Source: Nitrospirota bacterium (GTDB lineage Bacteria; Nitrospirota; UBA9217). Taken from it: DNA of 48,157 bases. Both the position numbers and the translations under genes were made by a program. Numbering within the stretch: the first letter of the stretch is position 1; each line of letters opens with the position of its first letter. Shown in pieces: positions 3,208 to 48,157 of the stretch. The stretch lies in assembly GCA_021814615.1 (NCBI GenBank), contig JAKAHZ010000010.1, forward strand, positions 1-48,157, written 5' to 3'. The notes under the pieces were generated by a model. The model did no database searches. It was not told where the DNA came from and was given only the letters and a program-made list of their open reading frames with translations.

Positions 3208-3376
3208 TGCATATCGCGCAGCGGCCCTGGCCGTTTACCGCCGGGGCCGCAGGACTCTTTTCTCCCTGCCGGAAAGCTTCCCCGTCAGCAAACGAAGTTC
3301 CCGTGATTTCAGTGCAATTTCATCTCCTCCGCCGTCATCCCAAAGTCAGCCCTTCGATGAGCAAGAAATCTGAACG

Positions 3377-11392: not shown

Positions 11393-13966
11393 TCAGGCGC
11401 CTTTGGGGATCATGAGTTTGTTTAGCACATTCCGCAGCTCGACGACATCATAGGGTTTCTTGAGGAACGCCTTGAATCCCTGTTCCAGGTAGCCGGCGAT
11501 GCCTGCGTCATCGGAGTAGCCGCTCGAAACAACGGCTGCAACACGGGGATCCACTGCCAGGAGTTTCTTGACCGCTTCAGCGCCGCCCATTCCTCCCCGA
11601 ATGGTCAAGTCCAGAATAACCACGTCAAAGGGATCTCCGGCTTGTGCGGCTGCCAGGTATTTTTCAACAGCCTCGGCGCCGTGCGACGCAGTCTCCACAC
11701 GGTGCCCGAGTTCCCCGATCAACGCGGAAGCCACGTCGCGGATGACCTGCTCGTCGTCCATGACCAGCACCCTGCCGCCCCGCTTCGGCGAAACAGCTGC
11801 CGCGGTCTTCTCCTCTGCCGCAGCCCGGCGGGCTTGTATCGCGGGAAGGTAGAGCGAGAAGGTCGTCCCCTTTCCCGCCTCCGACTTCACGTTGATCGCG
11901 CCGTTGTGGTTCTTGATGATGGAGTAGGACGTCGCAAGCCCGAGACCGCTCCCCTTCTCCTTGGTCGTGAAGTAGGGATCGAAGATTTTCGCGAGATACT
12001 GCTCCGGGATGCCGACGCCCGTATCGGAGATGGAGATCACGATATAGCTCCCTTCCGCCAGCCCCTTGGGCGCGTCAGGGCCGGACACGGTCATATTCCC
12101 GGCGCGAATATCCACCTCGCCGCTTTCGGGCATTGCCTGGTCGGCATTGAGCACAATGTTCTGGATTACCTGACTGATCTGCCCTTCATCAGCATCCGCC
12201 GGCCAGAGATTCTTGTCCGCTGTTATCCGGCAATCGGTGCGCGAACCGCTCAGGGCGAACTTCGCCGCGTTCTCGATCACCGGCAGGAGGTCGATCGTCT
12301 TCTTTGCCGGCCTTCCGCCTTTCGAGAACGTGAGCAGCTGGTTCGTCAGCCTGACCGACATGTGCAGCGCCTTCTCCGCTTCCTCGAGCGCCGCAAGACT
12401 CTTTTCCCGGTCGTCACGCTTCAGTTTTGCAAGAGAGATGTAGCCAAATACGCCCTGCAGCAGGTTGTTGAAGTCATGGGCGATCCCTCCGGCGAGCGTT
12501 CCCACAGCCTCCAGCTTCTGCGTCTTGAGCCGCTCCTCCTCCAGAAGCTGCCGCTCGGTGATGTTCGAGATGACCTCGATGGCCGATGTCACCTTGCCGG
12601 AAGCGTCTTTCAGGGGAAAAGCCTTGGTTTCCACGAAGATCACCTGATCGTTCTTCCCTGCATGCTTGTGGAAGACGATATGCGGATTCCCGTCGGCGAA
12701 TACCCGGCGCACGGCGCAATCCTCGCCCTCATCGAAACAGGGATTTGTCGTCCCATGCGAAACGGCATGGCAGGTTTTCCCCAGAATATCGTCGCAGGAC
12801 CGATTAATTTGATCGCAGTAGGCCCGGTTGGCAGTCTGAATCCTGAACTCCCGGTCTACGACGATAAATCCCTGGTCAACGGTATCCAGGATCGTCCGGA
12901 TGAATGCTTCCCGTTCCCGGAGCTTTTCCTCCGCGCTTTTCCGCGACGTAATGTCCTCGTACACGCCGAGCACGCCGGTCACGTTTCCCTTTCGATCGTG
13001 AAGCGGCACTTTTGAAGTGTCGATCCAGAGCCGCGAGCCGTCTGCCTGCTGGAGCGGTTCGATGATATGCAGTTTCGGCCGGTCGCCGGTGATGACATCG
13101 TGGTCGTCTCGCCGGTACGATTCCGCTTCGGCCCGCGGCCAGGGCAGATCGTAGTCGGTCTTGCCGACGATGCTTTCCGGATTATCGAGTCCCACGGCCC
13201 GGGCAAAGACGTCGTTGCAGCCCTGGTAAACGCTGTCCCGGTCCTTCCAGAAGACGGATTGGGGCAGGGTATTGAGGACCTGCCTCAGCATGTTCTGGCT
13301 TTCAAGCAGGGCTTTCTCCGCATATTTGCGTTCTTCGATCTCTCGGGTCACATCCCGGAAGAGCTGGGCGTTTTCGATGGCAATGCTCACCTGGTTCGCG
13401 AACACCGTAAGCAAATCGAGATCATGCTGCGTGAAACATCCTCCGCCCTGTTTGCCCAAGGCCGAAAGGCCGCCGAGGATACCCTTCCGCCCGATGAGCG
13501 GGACGAGCACCGCGGATTGCTGGCCTGCTTCCCAGGGCGTCGTCTCGTCCATCCAGTGGGTGCTCGTTTCGCCGAACAGGAGGCTCCTGCCGTGCTGCAG
13601 CACCCAGCCGCACATGCCGATGTGGGACTTGAAAACGGTTCCCCGCACAGCCTCCGCATCGACTCCAGACGCCGCCACGTAGGTATACGCGTCGCGCGCC
13701 TCGTTCAGCATCGGCACGATCACGGTTTCCGCATCCACGATTTCCCGTGCGGTAACGGCGACCTGTTCATAGACCCTGGCCAGGTCCAGTTCGGAAACGA
13801 TCATCTTGCTGACCGCGAGGAGGCGGGAAAATTCCTCGTTCTGGCGCAGGAACAGCCGCCCGCTCTCCGTCTGCTCCAGGGCGGCGCGTAGCGTCCGGAC
13901 CTCTTCCTGCAGGCGGCCGACGGCAGCCTGGAGATCGAGGAGCTCCTGTCTATCCTTGTTTTCCAT
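11393..13966 (-). CDS. Hybrid sensor histidine kinase (GAF, two PAS, HisKA, HATPase, receiver)
   Basis: The 857-residue cytosolic kinase starts with a short coiled coil (~1-40), then GAF (~45-200), PAS1 (~225-345), PAS2 (~355-470), HisKA with H497 in [12 protein letters not shown], an ATPase domain (SDTGVGIPEQYLAKIFDPYFTTKEKGSGLGLA) and a receiver with D786 in VVILDLTIRGGMGG. PAS2 carries a cysteine/histidine-rich stretch, GKTCHAVSHGTTNPC followed by EDCAV, a pattern seen in redox-type PAS domains. The ATG at 13966 starts 13 bases after the DsrE-like stop. Being last in a TusA-DsrE operon suggests it senses sulfur or redox state; this is inference. Confidence 0.92.
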   Translation of the reverse strand: MENKDRQELLDLQAAVGRLQEEVRTLRAALEQTESGRLFLRQNEEFSRLLAVSKMIVSELDLARVYEQVAVTAREIVDAETVIVPMLNEARDAYTYVAASGVDAEAVRGTVFKSHIGMCGWVLQHGRSLLFGETSTHWMDETTPWEAGQQSAVLVPLIGRKGILGGLSALGKQGGGCFTQHDLDLLTVFANQVSIAIENAQLFRDVTREIEERKYAEKALLESQNMLRQVLNTLPQSVFWKDRDSVYQGCNDVFARAVGLDNPESIVGKTDYDLPWPRAEAESYRRDDHDVITGDRPKLHIIEPLQQADGSRLWIDTSKVPLHDRKGNVTGVLGVYEDITSRKSAEEKLREREAFIRTILDTVDQGFIVVDREFRIQTANRAYCDQINRSCDDILGKTCHAVSHGTTNPCFDEGEDCAVRRVFADGNPHIVFHKHAGKNDQVIFVETKAFPLKDASGKVTSAIEVISNITERQLLEEERLKTQKLEAVGTLAGGIAHDFNNLLQGVFGYISLAKLKRDDREKSLAALEEAEKALHMSVRLTNQLLTFSKGGRPAKKTIDLLPVIENAAKFALSGSRTDCRITADKNLWPADADEGQISQVIQNIVLNADQAMPESGEVDIRAGNMTVSGPDAPKGLAEGSYIVISISDTGVGIPEQYLAKIFDPYFTTKEKGSGLGLATSYSIIKNHNGAINVKSEAGKGTTFSLYLPAIQARRAAAEEKTAAAVSPKRGGRVLVMDDEQVIRDVASALIGELGHRVETASHGAEAVEKYLAAAQAGDPFDVVILDLTIRGGMGGAEAVKKLLAVDPRVAAVVSSGYSDDAGIAGYLEQGFKAFLKKPYDVVELRNVLNKLMIPKGA

Positions 13967-37465: not shown

Positions 37466-37512
37466 ATAAAGGCCGGAAAGCTTTCGCTCGCCGGCCTATT
37501 GATGTCCTCCCT
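37466..37512 (-). repeat. GGCCGG hairpin repeat, subfamily B copy 1
   Basis: GGCCGG (37471-37476) and CCGGCC (37491-37496) enclose AGC/GCT pairs. On the minus strand it reads GGACATCAATA, then the hairpin, then CCTTTATG. It is nearly identical to 40629-40675, including the flanking CAATA. It probably once terminated the antitoxin remnant. Confidence 0.7.
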
Positions 37513-37771: not shown

Positions 37772-37883
37772 GTGCGCTACGCGGTCTTTCTGTCACGCTC
37801 CGGAATATCCTGGCCCTTATTGCGGATCGCCTGCTTGTCCGCGATAATGGCTTGATCCTCATTCTGGGGACGGAAAAGAAAAA

Positions 37884-37912
37884 GCCGGAGAGACCCTTCT
37901 CTCCGGCCTTGA
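37884..37912. terminator. GGCCGG family terminator after the cytochrome peroxidase gene
   Basis: GCCGGAGAG (37884-37892) pairs with CTCTCCGGC (37899-37907); the minus-strand side continues into CTTTTTCTTTTCC. It lies about 45 bases beyond the peroxidase stop at 37953. Confidence 0.85.
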
Positions 37913-37952
37913 TCGATCCCGATGTCAAAGGGAGAGACCTCGCTGGATCATC

Positions 37953-38993: not shown

Positions 38994-39368
38994 GGCTGAA
39001 CCTCCTGGATGACGATGACATGGCGCATACTCTTTCTGAGTATAGCACTGCATGCAACGGCAGGGGCAACGGAGCAGATTCAGGATTTCTGATCTCTTCC
39101 CTTGTTACATCCTGTGATAAATGCGATTTCTTTTGCGTTGATCTGCAATGCTGTGCGGACATCATCTTTAAAATATAGAGAAAGCAAGAGGGATGAAATG
39201 AACAGAGATTGATACTTTAGTCCCGCGTTGGCGGGCATATAGATCGCAAAGACAAACAGAGGTCTGTCCCGGGTCAGAGTTATTTCTTCCCCTGTCTCAC
39301 AGTTCGTGAACATCTTCATTGGCACCAAGAGTACAATATCCGACAGGAATGAAAATGGGTAAGAAAAG

Positions 39369-39443
39369 GCCGGAGAAGTTTTCCTCTCCGGCCTTGATCG
39401 TTCATGCGCAAAGCAACAGATGCAACAACCCCTAGGTCCTCCA
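39369..39443 (-). repeat. GGCCGG hairpin repeat, subfamily A copy 1
   Basis: The stem GGCCGGAGA (39369-39377) / TCTCCGGCC (39386-39394) is followed on the plus strand by TTGATCGTTC, TGCGCAA, GCAACAGAT, TGCAACAA and CCTAGGT. The same order of blocks recurs at 43196 and, shortened, at 44334. On the minus strand it ends in CCTTTTCTT and would act as a terminator. Confidence 0.75.
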
Positions 39444-39550
39444 GTCGATTCCTACGGGATGATTTTTTCGGCCACTACAGAATCAAGTCTGACCCCAGAC
39501 TGTACAATGTGAGAATCCTTCGGCAGGCCTGCTCGGGGTGTAAAATGACG

Positions 39551-39580
39551 AGGCCCGGAATTTTTCCGGGCCTTCTTATG
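39551..39580. terminator. Hairpin terminator near the cytochrome c gene end
   Basis: AGGCCCGGAA (39551-39560) pairs perfectly with TTCCGGGCCT (39564-39573) around a three-base loop, followed by TCTTATG. The poor T-run makes termination on either strand uncertain, but it lies about 90 bases beyond the cytochrome c stop at 39663. Confidence 0.6.
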
Positions 39581-39662
39581 ACAGGCGGCAGGCAATCGCA
39601 AAGAGGACTCTTCGAGAACAGGCCATACGAAGAGTCACCGCGTCACGACTGACCCTCGGTCA

Positions 39663-40472
39663 TCACTCGCCCCACACATCCACTGTCGCGCTCTGTCCTC
39701 CCGATGTCCGGATAGCGCGAGTTCCGGAAAGCTTCCTGCCGTCATCGGACAGCCGCAGATCAAAGGTCTCCAGCTTCCAGTATCCGGGATTGAGCGTCCA
39801 GCCCCAGGTGAGTTCCAGCTTCAAGGTCCTGTCGGCCAGGTGGAATGCGGTGACCTTCACGGTATAGTCCGTCAACCTGCTGATCAGGTCAACCGCGGGC
39901 TCGTCGTTCCCGTTCGCGGCGATCGTGAGCCGATGATAGTCAACCACTTCGCCGTCCTGCCTGCCCTTGATGGTCCAGGTCCTCGCAAAGCTCCCGTTCC
40001 ACGTTCTTTTCGCTTTCCCCGGTTTGCTCGCCGCAGGTGCCTGTACTGTCGCCGTGCTCATGCTCGTTTGAGACGGTGCTGCCGGCGTCGGTTCGACGGC
40101 GGCGGCCGGCGCAGCCGGTGCGACCTCGGGCAGGGAAACCCTCTTGCCTGCGGGGAGGATGTACTCTCCGATCGACCGCACCTCGGTATCTGACAACTTC
40201 TCTTCGCCGAATGCCGGCATCCCCGGGGGCGGCATCCTGATATCATCAACGAGTTTCCCGGGCATTTTCAGCTTAGCGGCATCGGGGTGGCAGTGAGCGC
40301 AATGTTTTCGGTAGAGTGCGCCGCCATCCTTCTGCGGATCGGCTAGGCATGGCGCAACGTTGAGGCAGAGAAAAAAGGCGGTCGCGGCCAACGACGTTCC
40401 TGCCCTGATGATGAGGCGCTGCAAGGGAAGACTCACGAGAGGGGAACAAGCAACCGTCCACATAAGGCACAT
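39663..40472 (-). CDS. Periplasmic cytochrome c with C-terminal beta domain
   Basis: The product has an N-terminal leader ending LIIRAGTSLAATAFFLCLNVAPCLA, then a class I cytochrome c domain with CAHCH and MPGKLVDDIRMPPPGMPAFGEEKLSDTEVRSIGEYI, which carries the axial methionine. A Pro/Ala linker follows and then a ~110-residue beta-rich domain (WNGSFARTWTIKGRQDGEVVDYHRLTIAANG) of unknown kind. The start is uncertain: ATG at 40472 or 40463, or a GTG nearer the signal peptide; none has a good ribosome site. The role is periplasmic electron transfer, with the added domain of unknown function. Confidence 0.75.
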   Translation of the reverse strand: MCLMWTVACSPLVSLPLQRLIIRAGTSLAATAFFLCLNVAPCLADPQKDGGALYRKHCAHCHPDAAKLKMPGKLVDDIRMPPPGMPAFGEEKLSDTEVRSIGEYILPAGKRVSLPEVAPAAPAAAVEPTPAAPSQTSMSTATVQAPAASKPGKAKRTWNGSFARTWTIKGRQDGEVVDYHRLTIAANGNDEPAVDLISRLTDYTVKVTAFHLADRTLKLELTWGWTLNPGYWKLETFDLRLSDDGRKLSGTRAIRTSGGQSATVDVWGE

Positions 40473-40780
40473 AGTAAGCCCCGAACTGAATACCGTCAAG
40501 ATAAGAGAACTGGTCGGAAAGAATCGGGATAAACCTTTGTTACAGGCATCGAAGGACAAGCAAGGCTGGATGGCGAACTATTGGCAGCAGGCGGGACGCG
40601 ACACAGCGGTAGGGCAATGTGAAAAAGAGAAAAGGCCGGAAAGCCTTCGCTTGCCGGCCTATTGACGTCCTATGTATGGCTTTTGGGCCCTGAAAAGGCA
40701 GTTTTAAGGCAATTCTGGGGCCACTTTTTCGGGATTTCGACTGTTCACCCGGGCAAGAACGGTTTCCCGGCCGGAGCGAC
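40473..40780. other. Intergenic region with the 3' end of the PPC lipoprotein transcript
   Basis: Nothing coding is supported. It contains a subfamily B hairpin repeat (40629-40675). Between that and the lipoprotein stop lies an unusual stretch with short direct motifs (AAGGCAGTTTTAAGGCAATT near 40694) and GGGCC pairs that may fold. Confidence 0.5.
40629..40675 (-). repeat. GGCCGG hairpin repeat, subfamily B copy 2
   Basis: GGCCGG (40634-40639) and CCGGCC (40654-40659) enclose AGCC/GCT. On the minus strand it reads GGACGTCAATA, the hairpin, then CCTTTTCTCTTTTTC, a good terminator for the lipoprotein gene. It matches 37466-37512 almost base for base, including the leading GGAC-TCAATA. Confidence 0.75.
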
Positions 40781-43096
40781 TTACTTGAACTCGATATCAT
40801 CCACCCAGACTGCATCCGCGCCGGTCACCGTGCCGTTATCCTTCTTATAGCACCACTTGTAGACCGTGGAGGAAACTCCCGCGAGCGACGGCGTGCTGAA
40901 CCAGGCCCTGCGCCAGGCGACCGGATCGTACCAATAGTGATAGGCGCTGCCGTTGATGTAGAACTCCAGCGCGTTCATCGAGGCCGCGTCCTGCTTGAGA
41001 CTGAAGAGAACCTCGGCCGTCCCGGTCCTTGTGTACTCAAAGCAGGTTGACTGCCCGACGGAGATCGATCCGGATTTCATGCTGGAACCCGTCCCCGGCG
41101 ATGCCCCGCCGTTGTTGGCCGCGTCGATGCCCCACTTGGTGAATTGGTTCCCCGGATAGGTCAGAACGAAAGAGGCCGGAAGGAGCCCGTCCTGGAACGA
41201 GAAACATTCGGCAGCGCCGCCGCCGCAACCGGAAGCAGGATCAAGGGGCGCCACCGTGACGGCATAAGAACTGGAGATATTGCCTGACGTATTGCTTTCG
41301 ACGGCGAGGTAGTAGGCGGTGTTCGCGTTCAGCACGCCGTAGGAGGACTGCGTCGTCGAGCAGATCTTATCTGCCGTGCCGGTTCCCATCAGGCACACGG
41401 GGCTGATATCCGTTGTGAAGACCGCGTCGGAATACAGCCGCCACCCGAGACTCGTCTGCATGTTCGTGAGGCTGATCCGGTACGTCATGGCCGAGGATCC
41501 GGTGGTGAACTTGTAATAGCTCGTTGCGTATTTGACGACGTAGCCGTTGTGCGCTGCACCCGGGGTCAGGGGATAGGGATAGTTCTTCGATCCCTCGTTC
41601 CCTCCGCCGGCAGCCGCCTGGAGCGTAAAGGAACTTGCCGCTGCCTCGGCATTCGAGACCTTGAGGTAATAGGTCGTGTTCGGATCGAGGTTGGCGGTGG
41701 CGCAGGTCTCGTCGCCCGCACCTGCGGTCGTCACCGTGTCGCAGGAGCCGAGGCTGGTAGTGAATCCTGCGTCGGAATACACCGTCCAGCTTAGGTTCGT
41801 CTGCGTATTCGTGAGGCTTACGGTATAGGAGCCGCCGACCCCGGTGTCCGCCGTGGTGAAGGCATAATAGCTGGAGCTCTTCCCGTCGACAGAGGCGGCC
41901 GTGGCCTGGCCAACGGTCAGCGCGACCGGCCCGGCAGGAGATCCCTCGCTGCCGCCCGGGATCACGACGATACTGTAGGTGCTGGACTGGCCGCCGCTGA
42001 TTGCTGTCGCGTTCATCACCTTCACATAATAGGCGGTCGCCGGTCCCAGGCCGGAGGCAAGGCACTGCGCTGACGAGTAGCAGGTTGCCACCTCGGACCC
42101 ATAGGAAAAGGCAGGATCGGAATAGACAAGGATGGTCAGCGTTGCCGTGGGCGTCACATTGCTCACCGCAATAGTATAAGACGACGTGGCGTTCGCATTC
42201 GTGGTGAACCTGTAGTAGCTCGTTCCTCCGTTTTCGATGCCGCCCACGTGACTCGTTCCGACGGTGAGATGCACGGGGCCGCTCACCGAGCCTTCGCTCG
42301 CTCCGGGCGACACGGTTATGGTGAAGAATCCGTCCTTATACCCCTGTTCCTCGACAAGCAGATAGTAGGACTGGCCGTTAACCAGGTTCGGGGTCGCGCA
42401 GATCTCGTCCCCTGCGTAGGAGGTGGTGTCGCAGGAGAAAACCACATAGGCAGTATAGCTTGCGTTGGAATAGAGCGACCATCTCAGGTCCTGGTGCGTA
42501 TCGGTCAGGCCGATGATGAACGAACCGTCCCGGTCGGCAACAAAGGAATAATAGCCTTTGCCGTCGCTCGATATGGTCGCATTGTGGGGCGTGCCGACGG
42601 TGAGCAGCACAGGGCTCCCGATGTTTCCCTCGTTCCCGCCTCCCGCAGTGACCGTTACCGTGTAGAAGCTCCCCGAGCCGGTGCTGTAATTGTTCACCAT
42701 GAGATAGTAGGCGGTCCCGCCGGTCAGGTCCGCGAAAGCAGCCAAGGTTGGGGAAGAATAACTGCTGCAGGATTTAACGGCGTTCTTGAAACCGGCATCT
42801 GAAAACAGGACCCAGCTGAGCGAGGTCGTGGCGCCGGTGACGGTGATCGTATAGAATCCGCTGGATGACGGAGTGAAGGAATAGTAGCTCACGCCTCCCA
42901 CGCCGATGCTCCCTGATGAGGGGGTCCCTACGGTGAGAGCAGCCGGGTTTGAACTAGAGCCGTCGCCGCTTCCCACGGGTATGGTCGAGGTATCGCCGCC
43001 TGATGATGCGCCTCCGCCTCCACCGCCGCACGACGTGAGCAGGAACGATAATGCCAAGATCAGTAAAACAGGCCAGAGTACGCGCAAATCCTTCAT
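40781..43096 (-). CDS. Lipoprotein with five PPC-like repeats and a C-terminal jelly-roll-like domain
   Basis: The 771-residue protein has a lipoprotein signal (MKDLRVLWPVLLILALSFLLTSC, C23 lipidated) and a glycine-rich stretch. Five ~125-residue repeats follow, each with a G-x-P-V-x-LTVGT start, SYYxFTT, a W-x-LYSDAxF strand and an AxxYYLxVxN strand. These resemble pre-peptidase C-terminal (PPC) domains. The end (CFSFQDGLLPASFVLTYPGN to VWVDDIEFK) looks like a carbohydrate-binding or MAM-type beta sandwich. No protease or other catalytic domain is attached, so a surface adhesion or binding role is inferred. AGGAGG precedes the ATG. Confidence 0.85.
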   Translation of the reverse strand: MKDLRVLWPVLLILALSFLLTSCGGGGGGASSGGDTSTIPVGSGDGSSSNPAALTVGTPSSGSIGVGGVSYYSFTPSSSGFYTITVTGATTSLSWVLFSDAGFKNAVKSCSSYSSPTLAAFADLTGGTAYYLMVNNYSTGSGSFYTVTVTAGGGNEGNIGSPVLLTVGTPHNATISSDGKGYYSFVADRDGSFIIGLTDTHQDLRWSLYSNASYTAYVVFSCDTTSYAGDEICATPNLVNGQSYYLLVEEQGYKDGFFTITVSPGASEGSVSGPVHLTVGTSHVGGIENGGTSYYRFTTNANATSSYTIAVSNVTPTATLTILVYSDPAFSYGSEVATCYSSAQCLASGLGPATAYYVKVMNATAISGGQSSTYSIVVIPGGSEGSPAGPVALTVGQATAASVDGKSSSYYAFTTADTGVGGSYTVSLTNTQTNLSWTVYSDAGFTTSLGSCDTVTTAGAGDETCATANLDPNTTYYLKVSNAEAAASSFTLQAAAGGGNEGSKNYPYPLTPGAAHNGYVVKYATSYYKFTTGSSAMTYRISLTNMQTSLGWRLYSDAVFTTDISPVCLMGTGTADKICSTTQSSYGVLNANTAYYLAVESNTSGNISSSYAVTVAPLDPASGCGGGAAECFSFQDGLLPASFVLTYPGNQFTKWGIDAANNGGASPGTGSSMKSGSISVGQSTCFEYTRTGTAEVLFSLKQDAASMNALEFYINGSAYHYWYDPVAWRRAWFSTPSLAGVSSTVYKWCYKKDNGTVTGADAVWVDDIEFK

Positions 43097-43190
43097 GAGC
43101 TAGCCTCCTGTTTTGTAAATCTAAAGTATTGCCCCGCGAGTCTACTCTCTCTGTTCAAGGAAGTCAACATGGCGGATAGAACATGAAAAA

Positions 43191-43272
43191 GAAAAGGCCG
43201 GAGATTGCCCTCCGGCCGTGATCGTTCGCTGTGCAACGCAACGGATTGCAACAAAGTCCCCTAGGTTGTCCT
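43191..43272 (-). repeat. GGCCGG hairpin repeat, subfamily A copy 2
   Basis: The stem GGCCGGAG (43196-43203) / CTCCGGCC (43210-43217) is followed by GTGATCGTTC, TGTGCAACGCAAC, GGATTGCAACAA and CCTAGGT. The conserved part begins right after the DUF3108 stop codon (43273) and on the minus strand ends in CCTTTTCTTTTTC, so it serves as that gene's 3' end. Confidence 0.8.
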
Positions 43273-44172
43273 CTACTGCACGATCCTGCGGGTCCCCGGC
43301 CTCATGTCGGCGAGTTCGAACACGAAGGACCCTACTTTGATCTTGGTCTTCATCAGCACCGGGACCTTCCTGTCGTCGTCGGTGAGCCACAGCAAGATCT
43401 CCCCTTTTTTCGTATCAGTCCCCTTCTCCCGGGAAGAGGCGCTGATCTTGACCGCATCGAAGTCCCCGGCAGCGGTCTTGATCATCTCCCGGGCCAGGAC
43501 CAGGAACTGCATGGTCCAGGTCTTGCCGCTGTCCAGCACATCGATCTCCAGCTGCTTGCCGATCAATAGGTCGCCCCTGGTCCGGAGCGCATAGAGCATC
43601 GACAGGCCGTCGTAGACCGGATCGGGAATGCCCACAGTCCTGGGCGGATCTTCATTCAGCCGGTAGACCGCCGTCCGTGCCGCGTGGTCGAACTCCGTCA
43701 CGCGAAGCCGCTTCCTCTTGCCGTAGCTTTCCCGGAGGCTGTAGGAGAGGCTTTGCATGCGCAGGGGGTCGAAGACGCTCTGGACCGTATCGTTCACCGG
43801 AAAGACCTTGTCAATCGCGCCCGTGGTCCGGCCCTGCACCACGAACTTGAGGACCTCCCGGCCGCCGGGCAGTTCTTCCCTCTCCACCGTCATGGTCACG
43901 GTCCCTGCCGAGACCATCTTCGACCAGCTGGCAACGTAGGTCAGGACCTCTCCGGGATGGAACGCCCGGATGCCTGTTGGCGGCAGGGCAAGCGTTGGCG
44001 GGGTCGCAGACGGGGGCGAGGCGATCGTCGGGATCCCGGACGGCTTGGGAGAAATGGTCGTTTCCGACGCGCCGGACAGCGGGAAGGCAAGCAGCAGCCC
44101 GAAGGCGAGCATGCAGGACGCCGCGGCCGACAGAAAGAGACGGCGGGATGCTGTTTTCTCAGAGAGCGTCAT
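43273..44172 (-). CDS. DUF3108 family exported protein
   Basis: The 299-residue product has an N-terminal basic region and hydrophobic leader (RRLFLSAAASCMLAFGLLLAFPLSGAS), a proline-rich linker and then a DUF3108 domain: FHPGEVLTYVASWSKMVSAGTVTM, FDPLRMQSLSYSLRESYGKRKRLRVTEFD, PDPVYDGLSMLYALRT and GEILLWLTDDDRKVPVLMKTKIKVGSFVFEL. DUF3108 proteins are periplasmic or outer-membrane-linked with unknown function. The ATG at 44172 is chosen; a TTG fourteen codons earlier is less likely. Confidence 0.85.
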   Translation of the reverse strand: MTLSEKTASRRLFLSAAASCMLAFGLLLAFPLSGASETTISPKPSGIPTIASPPSATPPTLALPPTGIRAFHPGEVLTYVASWSKMVSAGTVTMTVEREELPGGREVLKFVVQGRTTGAIDKVFPVNDTVQSVFDPLRMQSLSYSLRESYGKRKRLRVTEFDHAARTAVYRLNEDPPRTVGIPDPVYDGLSMLYALRTRGDLLIGKQLEIDVLDSGKTWTMQFLVLAREMIKTAAGDFDAVKISASSREKGTDTKKGEILLWLTDDDRKVPVLMKTKIKVGSFVFELADMRPGTRRIVQ

Positions 44173-44327
44173 AGGACCCGCGAGCGGAGCGCGTTCCGGT
44201 AGCGCAAAAAGCAAGGACCGGAATTGAAGATCATCATGGTAGGTATATTATAAATTACTCTCCGTTCTTCGCACAATAGAGGATCAGCGGCGGCCTGCAC
44301 GGTTGCGTTCGCCATGAGACTGGGAAA

Positions 44328-44400
44328 AGAAAAGGCCGGCGAGATTCTTCTCTCCGGCCTTGTCGTTCGTGCGCAATAGGTGCAACAACGTCCCTTTATA
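44328..44400 (-). repeat. GGCCGG hairpin repeat, subfamily A copy 3
   Basis: GGCCGG (44334-44339) / CCGGCC (44354-44359) with inner GAGA/TCTC is followed by TTGTCGTTCGTGCGCAA and GTGCAACAACGTCCC. The blocks match copies at 39369 and 43196 but lack CCTAGGT. On the minus strand it lies directly after the AT-rich giant gene and ends in CCTTTTCTTTTCC. Confidence 0.75.
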
Positions 44401-44466
44401 TTTCCGTTCTGATGTCAATCAGCTCAGTTGGAATGCAGCATAGAAACGACGTCCCCAGGGTGTTCG

Positions 44467-47400
44467 CTACGATGTCTTGTGACGGTGCTTCCTTTTTTTC
44501 TTACTCTTCTTTAAGCTATTAGGACTGACAATGCTAGACGAGCAATCAAGAATTATAACTTCAATGAGAACCCGATCATCTTCTGGAATAACCGTCAGAA
44601 GCGCATTCTGCAATTCAGAAGGTGTAACTGGTTGACTTATGCCCATTGGCGGTTTCCGAATATTCTTTTCTTTCGTTCCGAACCAAAATACAAGATAGAT
44701 CCCACGGCCCTGAGTACCTGGATCTCGGACATATAATTTCTGAAGTTGTTCAACTGGAGCAGTCCACAGGTCGGGGTGATAGTGCCGTTTGATTTCAATT
44801 GGAACATTCATTGAACCAAACAGCGCTTTAATATCGGCCCTTTTATCCTGGGCGTAATGACCTTCTGGCTCGGCATTGACTCCTACGCGAGATAATCTAG
44901 GTCGAATTATCTCCAAGAGTCGATCACGACAATCATTTTCCGGCCGGGGTTTTGTTGGTTTATCGTGCGGATCAACGTTCCAAAAAGCCTTATAGCCATC
45001 AGTAGGTCCGTGACGCAGTTCTTCACTTATTGCATTCAAATGATCAACTAATAATGCTTGAAGATCTGCTGAGTTAGAAGGTTGACCGCCCTGTAATGTC
45101 GAAATAACTTTCGCAACCGTGGGGAACTGAAATTCTGTTTCACGTCGTTGCTGCATTTGAGATGCGCGTGCCCGCGCTATAGACTCTTTCCATGACGATA
45201 ATGCTGGATTGTTATAAAGTTCGTTCAAGGTATTGACAGCCGCTTGGCTTATATCATTGCCTAACACAGTCAATAGGCCATCTATAGACCGCGATCGCTC
45301 TTCCTCAGCATTGATATCACGCACCCATTCACTTTCATTGCCCCGATAATGTGGGAAAACACTACCTGCAATGGATATCGGCAATGTAAGATCCAATGGC
45401 CTTTTCTTTAGCCTTTCTAAACCAATTTGCGAAATATAATTGAGAAAATGTGCTGCCTTATCTTTATTTCTATTCACATATTTCGCAAGCTTCTTCTTAA
45501 ATTTATCAGCGTTTAATAAATAACCTGTGGCAAGCCAGTAAATTCGCTGCACGCCGCTAACGAGGCCAGCCCTTGAAAGGACATCATCAACAAGCTTGAG
45601 CAGTAAGCTCTGATCAACGTGGTTGAGCGCCACTCTCATCAGATGTCTAAGATTTTGTTCAGTGCAACATGGATATTCACTCAGCAATAAGGGCGAGAGA
45701 AGTCTTCCAACATCTTTCATTTTATCGTCGTGTGCAAGACTGTAGAGCCCAGGGATATCCGCTGCGTCTTTTGCAAAATGCGGTTTCCAGAAAGCCCCCA
45801 AAGCTTCTACAGCGAGAGCGGGCCGTTCGACCATAATGCGAGTAACCCATTCTCTTTCTCCGCCAGTTGAGCTTGCATAATGATACGCAATTGCGGACCG
45901 CAATATTTCATCTGCCAAAGTCAATAGATCGTCTATCGAATTACTGGCAAATAAATCCATTGCTGCAAGAATTACGATGCCATAGGTGTAATGACGCGAT
46001 GAATCCGCGTGAAGCTCTCCAATTTGACTCGGTGTATATACGGGCTTCTTCCTGACAATGTAGCCAAAGCCCTCCTTAGCAGCACTAGCAAGCTCATCAC
46101 CCACAAAAGCTATTAGCCGGGCCTCAGGCGGCAGATCACGGTCAATCTCTACATATCTACCGAAATATATATTGGCCAGAAAAACTAAGGAACTTATATC
46201 CTCTCCTGATCGAATATCGTCCATTTTCGTCTTTATGTTTTCAATAAGTGTGGCTCGTTTTTCAAGCCGTTGACGCTCATCCTCTATGTGTTGTATCTGG
46301 TGTTCTATATGGTCAGTACTTAATCGTGCGATAAGTAGCGATTCTGATAAATTGCGAAATTGAGGATGTCTGTCCACGAAAGCATGTATCTCTTCAACCG
46401 CTTGGGTAACGTCTTGATCACTCCGATAATTTATTCGGATAGCCTTCTTTAACAGGAATTCCGCTTTTAGAGAATTTGATTCAATTGCCGCTTGTTCCAG
46501 CATCCGTCGCGTAATATCTTCCGGATACTTCACACCTGTTAAAGCGTACGAGAACCTATATTCCTCATGTTCCACTCTTTCTGGAGGGGAGACCATAATG
46601 AGATTAAAAAACAGTTGAGCAACTATCGTCGGCCTCGTCTTTAGCCAATCGATTACTTCTTGTGATTTCTCACGTTCGATCAGTATTTCCCCATATTCAC
46701 CAGCTATTAACATTATCCAGGTATAGAGACGATTGACCGATACTGCTTCTCCATGATCGGCCAAGCCGGCTACTAGAAGATCGCCAACAAATCTTTTGCA
46801 CGAATAACATTCCTCAGATGATCGCAGAAAGTTTGCCCCTACTACCGCGTCAAGAAGCACTGGTATCTGTTGTAAATCAGTTTTCTTAACCAAATAGGTA
46901 TCAAGAAATCTGTTGTAGTCGCTATATATGTTTGAATGCTCAGGAATCAGATAATCAACTATCTGTGGCACGCCAATTACCAAAGGATAAAGGGTGTGCA
47001 GTAAGTTCCCCAGCAAACCATTATCATCATCCTTGACGCGACCATTATTAATATCGTTAAGAAGTTGTTCAAGGTCCTTCATGCGGTCTGGGCATGCATG
47101 TATAAATGCCCGAAGTCCATTAACTCGAAGATAGTCGCGCCGTGTCTTATCACGAACAACATTAAGCAATAAATCTCCAAGTCGCGGTAGCGGCGTTCCA
47201 TAGCGGATTGCATCTAAAACACAACTCACAGCAACCGGATGTTGAGATGAATCTTCGATTATTTTTCTAAAGGCAAGTTCCATATCCTCTGAAGCAAGCC
47301 CTCCGAGTGGGCGCGAAGCCCAATTTTCTGCCGACCGGAACCAAGGATTTCTCTGTGCAAGATCAACGAGGTTCTTTATGACCAACTTTTTAGCAGATAG

Positions 47401-48157
47401 TGATAGCTGCGCGGGATCGCCATATAGCACGACACCGAATGGGTCTCGCGGTATTAAGGATTCAACATGCTCCGGACACTGGCATGCAAGCCACGCAAAA
47501 AGCCCTCTGAGATCGGATAAAGTACCACCATCATTTCCAGTAACCAGTGCTATTACACGCCCAATTGGCAGCCCTTCGCGAATGCGGGTTACGAGATATC
47601 GAGCAGCCACGAACTCTGCTATAGTTCTATGCGTCGGCACAACCCTTTCAAAACCGTCAGCACGAAATATCCTACGACGCGCAGCCAAGCTCAATTCATC
47701 TTGTTTGCCTGGTAACTCACCTATAAATGGAAAACTCTGATCAGCACTCTTTTCTGTTAGTGCAAACCCCTCAGATCCACCACATAAGATAACAGCACTT
47801 AAATAGCCAGCTGCGCTTAGCATCATATCTATATTTACATCAGCCGGCAGAGCCCTATTATGCTCTTCTCTCTCTTTTACTAATATTCGACATGCGCTCT
47901 CGTAAAGCTCCAATCGAGTATGAGGCCAGTCCCCTGTATGAACAACCGTCATAATGAGATCCAGAGTCTGAGGATTCGTTAACAGCTCATAAATACCACG
48001 ACGTCTTGCCTCCTTGACAAATAATCGCGCATCTGAAACCTTATCATATGCAATTGTGAGTATGTCTTGCTCTGAAAGGGGTTCAAGGGACAAAGCGATT
48101 ACAGACTTGTCCTGCGAAACCAGTTTTAGCCTTTCTATATCCGATGATCCAGATCGG
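44467..48157 (-). CDS. Giant NACHT/STAND-like protein with C-terminal PD-(D/E)XK nuclease (5' end outside window)
   Basis: The frame is open to the right edge, giving at least 1230 residues; the true start is beyond the window. The first visible residues carry ELLTNPQTLDLIMTV, a TRLELYESAC segment and HRTIAEFVAARYL, typical of the helical part after a NACHT/AAA-like NTPase core. A ~750-residue alpha-helical region follows, then a nuclease-like end with RADIKALFGSMN, VPIEIKR and QLQKLYV (D codon 44833-44835, E 44794-44796, K 44788-44790, QxxxY 44731-44748). This fits an effector of PD-(D/E)XK type. A lysine/arginine-rich tail ends it. GC content is visibly lower than in all neighbours, suggesting horizontal acquisition. 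The likely role is anti-phage defence. Confidence 0.75.
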   Translation of the reverse strand, partial: RSGSSDIERLKLVSQDKSVIALSLEPLSEQDILTIAYDKVSDARLFVKEARRRGIYELLTNPQTLDLIMTVVHTGDWPHTRLELYESACRILVKEREEHNRALPADVNIDMMLSAAGYLSAVILCGGSEGFALTEKSADQSFPFIGELPGKQDELSLAARRRIFRADGFERVVPTHRTIAEFVAARYLVTRIREGLPIGRVIALVTGNDGGTLSDLRGLFAWLACQCPEHVESLIPRDPFGVVLYGDPAQLSLSAKKLVIKNLVDLAQRNPWFRSAENWASRPLGGLASEDMELAFRKIIEDSSQHPVAVSCVLDAIRYGTPLPRLGDLLLNVVRDKTRRDYLRVNGLRAFIHACPDRMKDLEQLLNDINNGRVKDDDNGLLGNLLHTLYPLVIGVPQIVDYLIPEHSNIYSDYNRFLDTYLVKKTDLQQIPVLLDAVVGANFLRSSEECYSCKRFVGDLLVAGLADHGEAVSVNRLYTWIMLIAGEYGEILIEREKSQEVIDWLKTRPTIVAQLFFNLIMVSPPERVEHEEYRFSYALTGVKYPEDITRRMLEQAAIESNSLKAEFLLKKAIRINYRSDQDVTQAVEEIHAFVDRHPQFRNLSESLLIARLSTDHIEHQIQHIEDERQRLEKRATLIENIKTKMDDIRSGEDISSLVFLANIYFGRYVEIDRDLPPEARLIAFVGDELASAAKEGFGYIVRKKPVYTPSQIGELHADSSRHYTYGIVILAAMDLFASNSIDDLLTLADEILRSAIAYHYASSTGGEREWVTRIMVERPALAVEALGAFWKPHFAKDAADIPGLYSLAHDDKMKDVGRLLSPLLLSEYPCCTEQNLRHLMRVALNHVDQSLLLKLVDDVLSRAGLVSGVQRIYWLATGYLLNADKFKKKLAKYVNRNKDKAAHFLNYISQIGLERLKKRPLDLTLPISIAGSVFPHYRGNESEWVRDINAEEERSRSIDGLLTVLGNDISQAAVNTLNELYNNPALSSWKESIARARASQMQQRRETEFQFPTVAKVISTLQGGQPSNSADLQALLVDHLNAISEELRHGPTDGYKAFWNVDPHDKPTKPRPENDCRDRLLEIIRPRLSRVGVNAEPEGHYAQDKRADIKALFGSMNVPIEIKRHYHPDLWTAPVEQLQKLYVRDPGTQGRGIYLVFWFGTKEKNIRKPPMGISQPVTPSELQNALLTVIPEDDRVLIEVIILDCSSSIVSPNSLKKSKKKRKHRHKTS

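Follow-up and report, generated by a model that had tools for sequence, protein, structure and literature searches.

A hairpin, GGCCGGAGAG, is preceded on its 5' side by a conserved extension of approximately 45 nt at three places in a Nitrospirota contig, which raises the question of what kind of sequence is being repeated. The window analyzed was the whole stretch of 48,157 nt. An earlier note on this DNA had proposed either a function in RNA (a small RNA derived from a 3' UTR, or a protein-binding site) or a REP-like mobile sequence. The copies are probably terminal inverted repeats (TIRs) of a TIRtron/TIRYT-type element, IS200-like and with a Y1 tyrosine transposase, each standing solo with the 3' end of a gene on one side and an intrinsic terminator on the other. 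No obvious gene was present on the 5' side of the copy at 39369. It is very probable that the extension is debris of mobile DNA and not a new regulatory RNA. The features of the region are given below.

39368-39393, minus strand: intrinsic terminator hairpin of copy 1, GGCCGGAGAGGAAAACTTCTCCGGCC, then TTTTCTT (fold z -3.9)
39394-39403, minus strand: terminator leader of copy 1, GAACGATCAA, which whole or in part also precedes GGCCGG hairpins that have no TIR
39404-39434, minus strand: TIR-like repeat, copy 1, degenerate and without ACG (profile R1, E 0.015; solo-copy profile, 13.9 bits, E 0.0019)
39474-39496, minus strand: solo repeat of a second TIR type, GGGGTCAGACTTGATTCTGTAGT, upstream of copy 1
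43196-43217, minus strand: intrinsic terminator hairpin of copy 2, GGCCGGAGGGCAATCTCCGGCC, then TTTTCTTTTT
43230-43264, minus strand: TIR-like repeat, copy 2 (profile R1, E 3.9e-5; solo-copy profile, 20.9 bits, E 1.2e-5)
44334-44359, minus strand: intrinsic terminator hairpin of copy 3, GGCCGGAGAGAAGAATCTCGCCGGCC, then TTTTCTTTTC, with one A-G mismatch in the stem
44370-44398, minus strand: TIR-like repeat, copy 3 (profile R1, E 0.0013; solo-copy profile, 24.7 bits, E 7e-7)
44425-44457, minus strand: fourth TIR-like repeat, without a hairpin of its own (9.6 bits with the profile of transposase-bracketing ends, against 8.1 bits for the best shuffle)

The units at 39369, 43196 and 44334 were found as previously described, all on the minus strand and with the extension 5' of the hairpin. 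Read on that strand, the unit at 39369 is CCTAGGGG, a gap of three positions, TTGTTGCATCTGTTGCTTTGCGCATGAACGATCAA and the hairpin. The units at 43196 and 44334 are CCTAGGGGACTTTGTTGCAATCCGTTGCGTTGCACAGCGAACGATCAC and TAAAGGGACGTTGTTGCACCTATTGCGCACGAACGACAA, respectively, each followed by the hairpin. With copy 1 as the query, copies 2 and 3 aligned at 80% identity over 63 to 77 nt with E values of 6e-12 and 5e-10, respectively, in the 3.49-Mb genome. The similarity therefore stands far above what chance would give, and the observation is real. In copy 1 the ACG of GGGGACGTTG is missing. A search of the 3.49-Mb genome for the complete unit of extension and hairpin gave no fourth place, and the control pattern gave 0 matches.

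For a solo-copy profile, only copies from other contigs and other genomes were used. The top three places in the 48-kb window were copies 3, 2 and 1, in that order, and the best score in 963 kb of shuffled window was 9.5 bits. With a profile of transposase-bracketing ends the best places in the window were copy 3 (10.0 bits), copy 2 (9.7 bits) and the fourth repeat, all above the best score from the same 963 kb of shuffled sequence. Copy 1 was the weakest copy and scored 3.2 bits with this profile, inside the shuffle noise. The E values of the profiles are somewhat optimistic because the profiles descend from matches first found with patterns derived from the window, and the bracketing of transposase genes is a criterion independent of this ancestry. 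The TIR of copy 2 begins 8 nt past the stop codon of a DUF3108 gene (43273-44214). The fourth repeat has the same orientation as the other copies and lies 9 nt past the stop codon of a 1208-aa ORF (44467-48093). The extension might have been the 3' part of a DUF3108 gene that had been duplicated; this was rejected, since the similarity upstream of copies 1 and 2 is faint and ends within approximately 25 nt, and copy 3 shows none.

The hairpin, GGCCGG...CCGGCC followed by TTTTCTTTT, is a predicted intrinsic terminator, having a GC-rich stem-loop and then a T-rich tract. Hairpins of the form GGCCGGA...TCCGGCCTTNT were present in 9 of 14 genomes of the same bacterial family, and the reversed control pattern gave 0 matches. 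These terminators stand after unrelated genes and mostly lack the extension. Such hairpins follow groEL-like genes (with a GGM-repeat tail) at three loci (L209, L210 and L215), at the latter two of which the TIR is absent. A leader, (GA)ACGATCAAA, is retained at several terminators in the family. The last 10 nt or so of the supposed extension, GAACGATCAA, are part of the terminator because they are found before such hairpins without the rest. Extension and hairpin had been taken as one family, and this was not borne out; they are separable modules, and the hairpin type occurs without the extension. In their GC-rich stem and T run at gene ends the hairpins resemble any intrinsic (Rho-independent) terminator, the sole peculiarity being a sequence type common to this bacterial family. 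A second type of leader, close to TTGACATCGAGCGCGATCAA, was seen before GGCCGG terminators at 37868-37940 of the window and twice in the genome G001, at 3250-3320 and 8310-8365 of L034. It is another recurrent sequence fused to these terminators.

A regulatory RNA or protein-binding site in the 3' UTR, kept for its function, would agree with the conserved order of motifs and with the position of two copies between a stop codon and a terminator. An Rfam scan of the window gave no match, however, and the consensus fold contained no pairs within the extension. The core of the TIR folds at -1.5 to -3.2 kcal/mol, no better than shuffled sequences, and self-folding as a REP hairpin was rejected on the same comparison. 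The earlier note had asked for compensatory changes. Only 1 of 13 hairpin pairs was changed on both sides, in one sequence, and none were found in the extension; the covariation term was unfavorable (+1.61) and the stem of copy 3 is mismatched. The unit is not conserved at the orthologous gene, and homology to a TIR explains the extension. A function in RNA is thus highly improbable. The lack of folding and covariation in the extension, together with an orthologue of the DUF3108 gene that has no unit, supports the REP-like mobile reading and not the RNA reading.

On sequence comparison the core of the extension, approximately 32 nt (CTAGGGGACGTTGTTGCAnncGTTGCGTTGCG), corresponds to the TIR of Y1 transposase elements of the IS200-like kind. 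Searching with 15 bases located two exact matches in the window's own genome, on contig C134, inverted, at 13929 and 14994. These flank a Y1_Tnp (PF01797) gene on both sides. The two ends, TAGGGGACGTTGTTGCTA and TAGCAACAACGTCCCCTA, are 100% complementary over 18 nt and lie 1,044 nt apart. On contig C123 of the congeneric genome G001, TIRs of 33 nt with 91% identity, GAATACTAGGGGACGTTGTTACTTACGTTGCGT, surround a Y1 gene which is 62% identical to that of C134. The same ends were found around more Y1 genes (G001:C44, G005:C254, G006:C76, G007:C61, G009:C13 and G018:C182), which are 59 to 84% identical to the C134 and C123 genes. All five Y1 genes of the genome that contains the window are bracketed by inverted repeats. 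These are of two related types, GGGGACGTTGTT and (G/A)GGGTCA.

Profile R1, of 38 positions, gave 86 matches at E<=0.1 in 19 of the 41 genomes searched, where approximately 4 would be expected by chance. Many matches formed inverted pairs that enclose a Y1 gene at a distance of about 1.1 kb, others formed inverted pairs 70 to 100 nt apart and the rest were solo. The inverted TIR pairs approximately 70 to 100 nt apart are REPIN-like (L146, L147, L153, L157, L166, L168 and L171). Within these pairs the GTTGTGTCC subtype has a GGAC-GTTGT-GTCC palindrome inside the repeat itself. The exact subtype of the window, GTTGCACCCGTTGCGTTGC, was found around no transposase gene and occurred only as solo copies, in 3 of 396 genomes of the phylum sample. 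An exact search of viral contigs gave 0 matches. The repeat of the second TIR type upstream of copy 1 (GGGGTCAGACTTGATTCTGTAGT, two substitutions allowed) occurs again on contig C44 of the window's own genome (G000), not far from the Y1 transposase gene there, and L034 has three copies.

The proposal of a REP-like mobile sequence was thus supported in that the extension matches the terminal repeat of Y1 transposase elements of the RAYT/TIRYT type. A lack of further copies, which had been named as grounds for refutation, applies to the whole unit, with three copies in the genome. It does not apply to the extension alone, of which more copies exist. Searches for an empty insertion site found none for any copy in the window, and insertion was not seen directly. 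An empty-site comparison at C134 was also set aside. Judged by eye, its flanks are a partial IS-type transposase and a partial transporter, and there is no clean empty site because the two flanks belong to different genes.

RAYT-like genes flanked by terminal inverted repeats rather than REPs have been termed TIRtrons, and their transposases TIRYTs (PMC3733652). Many TIRtron repeats described there have a GGGGWSAS motif and occur as solo, dimeric and grouped copies (PMC3733652, Di Nocera et al. 2013). A later phylogenomic study places most TIRYTs in TnpA-REP subclass 2.1, with C-terminal HTH domains (PMC6006769). The present elements are similar in having a Y1 (PF01797) gene and inverted repeats that start with GGGG, and their transposase may have a C-terminal HTH-like domain. 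The repeats that bracket the Y1 gene are inverted, and solo copies and inverted dimers also occur. Bracketed Y1/PF01797 genes were found on C134, on C123 of G001 and in the further elements, and the repeats also occurred as solo, dimeric or grouped copies. The HTH_23 match in the G001 Y1 protein had an E value of 7e-4, below the curated cut-off. Against the GGGGWSAS motif as given in that source, the end found here, GGGGACGT, fits 6 of 8 positions and the sister type, GGGGTCAG, fits 8 of 8. Pairing with intrinsic terminators at a fixed distance has no counterpart in the portions of the TIRtron descriptions consulted. REPs and REPINs with their RAYTs are also similar, being short extragenic repeats which are related to the ends of Y1 elements, often lie 3' of genes and also form inverted pairs. 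They differ in having a GTAG head with a palindrome and hundreds of copies per genome, compared to about ten here. The classical REP definition is GTAG plus a palindrome (PMC2817692). No GTAG with a GC-rich palindrome was found in the present repeats, whose ends are mostly (C/T)T(A/T)GGGGAC. The elements fit the TIRtron/TIRYT kind and fall outside the classical GTAG definition of a REP.

The TIR profile match ends 12 to 15 nt before the hairpin at six loci in four genomes, namely the three in the window and one each in G001:C89, G007:C61 and G012:C94. Under random placement this spacing would be expected approximately 4e-6 times per TIR, assuming about 10 such terminators per genome. A linker, GAAC[GC]ATCAA, is common to the six loci. 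Directly upstream of the G007 locus (L096, 1395-1475) there is a short inverted repeat, AAAGGACAC ... GTGTCCTTT. The G001 locus has the TIR subtype of that genome's own transposase element (23 of 24 bases). The window copies are of the GCACCC subtype, as in solo TIRs on C197 and in G013. The difference in TIR subtypes favors repeated landing beside terminators over one ancient composite, as far as the sequences can indicate. The best orthologue of the DUF3108 gene (G006, 67% identity) has neither TIR nor terminator. The kinase upstream of the G007 locus has orthologues that are likewise without the unit. The unit was therefore not inherited along with the genes it lies beside.

Alternatively, TIR and terminator may move together, which would also give a constant distance between them. 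A terminator would have been captured a single time beside a TIR, after which the TIR, approximately 13 nt and the stem-loop were copied as a block that carries its terminator along. Constant spacing with the common linker at six loci in four genomes is in keeping with this, as are the three copies inside 5 kb. The joint absence of TIR and terminator beside the DUF3108 orthologue is also expected from a composite mobile unit. There is a precedent in the TIRs of Pseudomonas putida and P. fluorescens, which are reported to be degenerate REPs joined to unrelated stem-loops and present hundreds of times (PMC3733652). Block copying is nevertheless rather unlikely, since leader and hairpin occur without the TIR in several genomes, TIR subtypes differ between the composites of different genomes and composite ends were not seen around any transposase gene. 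Local duplication alone, in which recombination copied one TIR and terminator twice within this 5-kb stretch, is improbable. The composites of this genome are all on one contig, on one strand and within 5 kb, and the region contains other duplicated pieces. Against it, three more composites lie in other genomes, two of these in other genera, and no convincing homology extends past the unit into the flanks of all three copies. Synteny of copy 1 with G001:C89 was considered and rejected. The matches are on the opposite strand with their order unchanged, so this is not a simple inverted segment.

For the preferred reading, solo TIRs beside terminators, a mechanism can be proposed. A TIRYT transposase, acting through HUH/Y1 single-stranded DNA chemistry, would have dispersed short TIR units. 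These would preferentially land, or be kept, at a fixed 12 to 15 nt 5' of a terminator hairpin. Plausibly, this is because the terminator hairpin, in single-stranded DNA, mimics the stem-loop which RAYT-type transposases read beside REPs. The TIR DNA, TAGGGGACGTTGTTGC, is a putative substrate for binding or cleavage by the transposase. Any transcript that runs through the TIR would simply carry it in the 3' UTR. The more general suggestion, that TIRYT transposases use terminator hairpins as landing marks for insertion into single-stranded DNA (approximately 12 to 15 nt on the 5' side), terminators thereby serving as safe and structure-directed integration sites, or that the unit is a mobile terminator cassette, is put forward tentatively.

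With the transposon-end explanation, what looks like a conserved element of the 3' UTR becomes debris of transposon ends, and a false annotation as a small RNA is avoided. A poorly studied branch of the single-stranded-DNA transposases also gains a family of TIRYT repeats in which transposase-linked ends, solo copies and REPIN-like pairs occur in the same genomes. If the fixed terminator spacing reflects targeting, it would be a concrete and testable case of structure-guided insertion.

Other repeats are present in the same part of the window. A 771-aa lipoprotein-like ORF on the minus strand (40781-43096), for which no Pfam match was found, contains repeated modules of approximately 115 aa, with DNA repeats approximately 345 nt apart. 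Hairpins at 37468-37508 and 40631-40671 have a common flank, CTATTGA(T/C)GTCCT, and are 93% identical over 41 nt. Related hairpins adjoin PIN-domain toxin-antitoxin-like genes in G001:C89.
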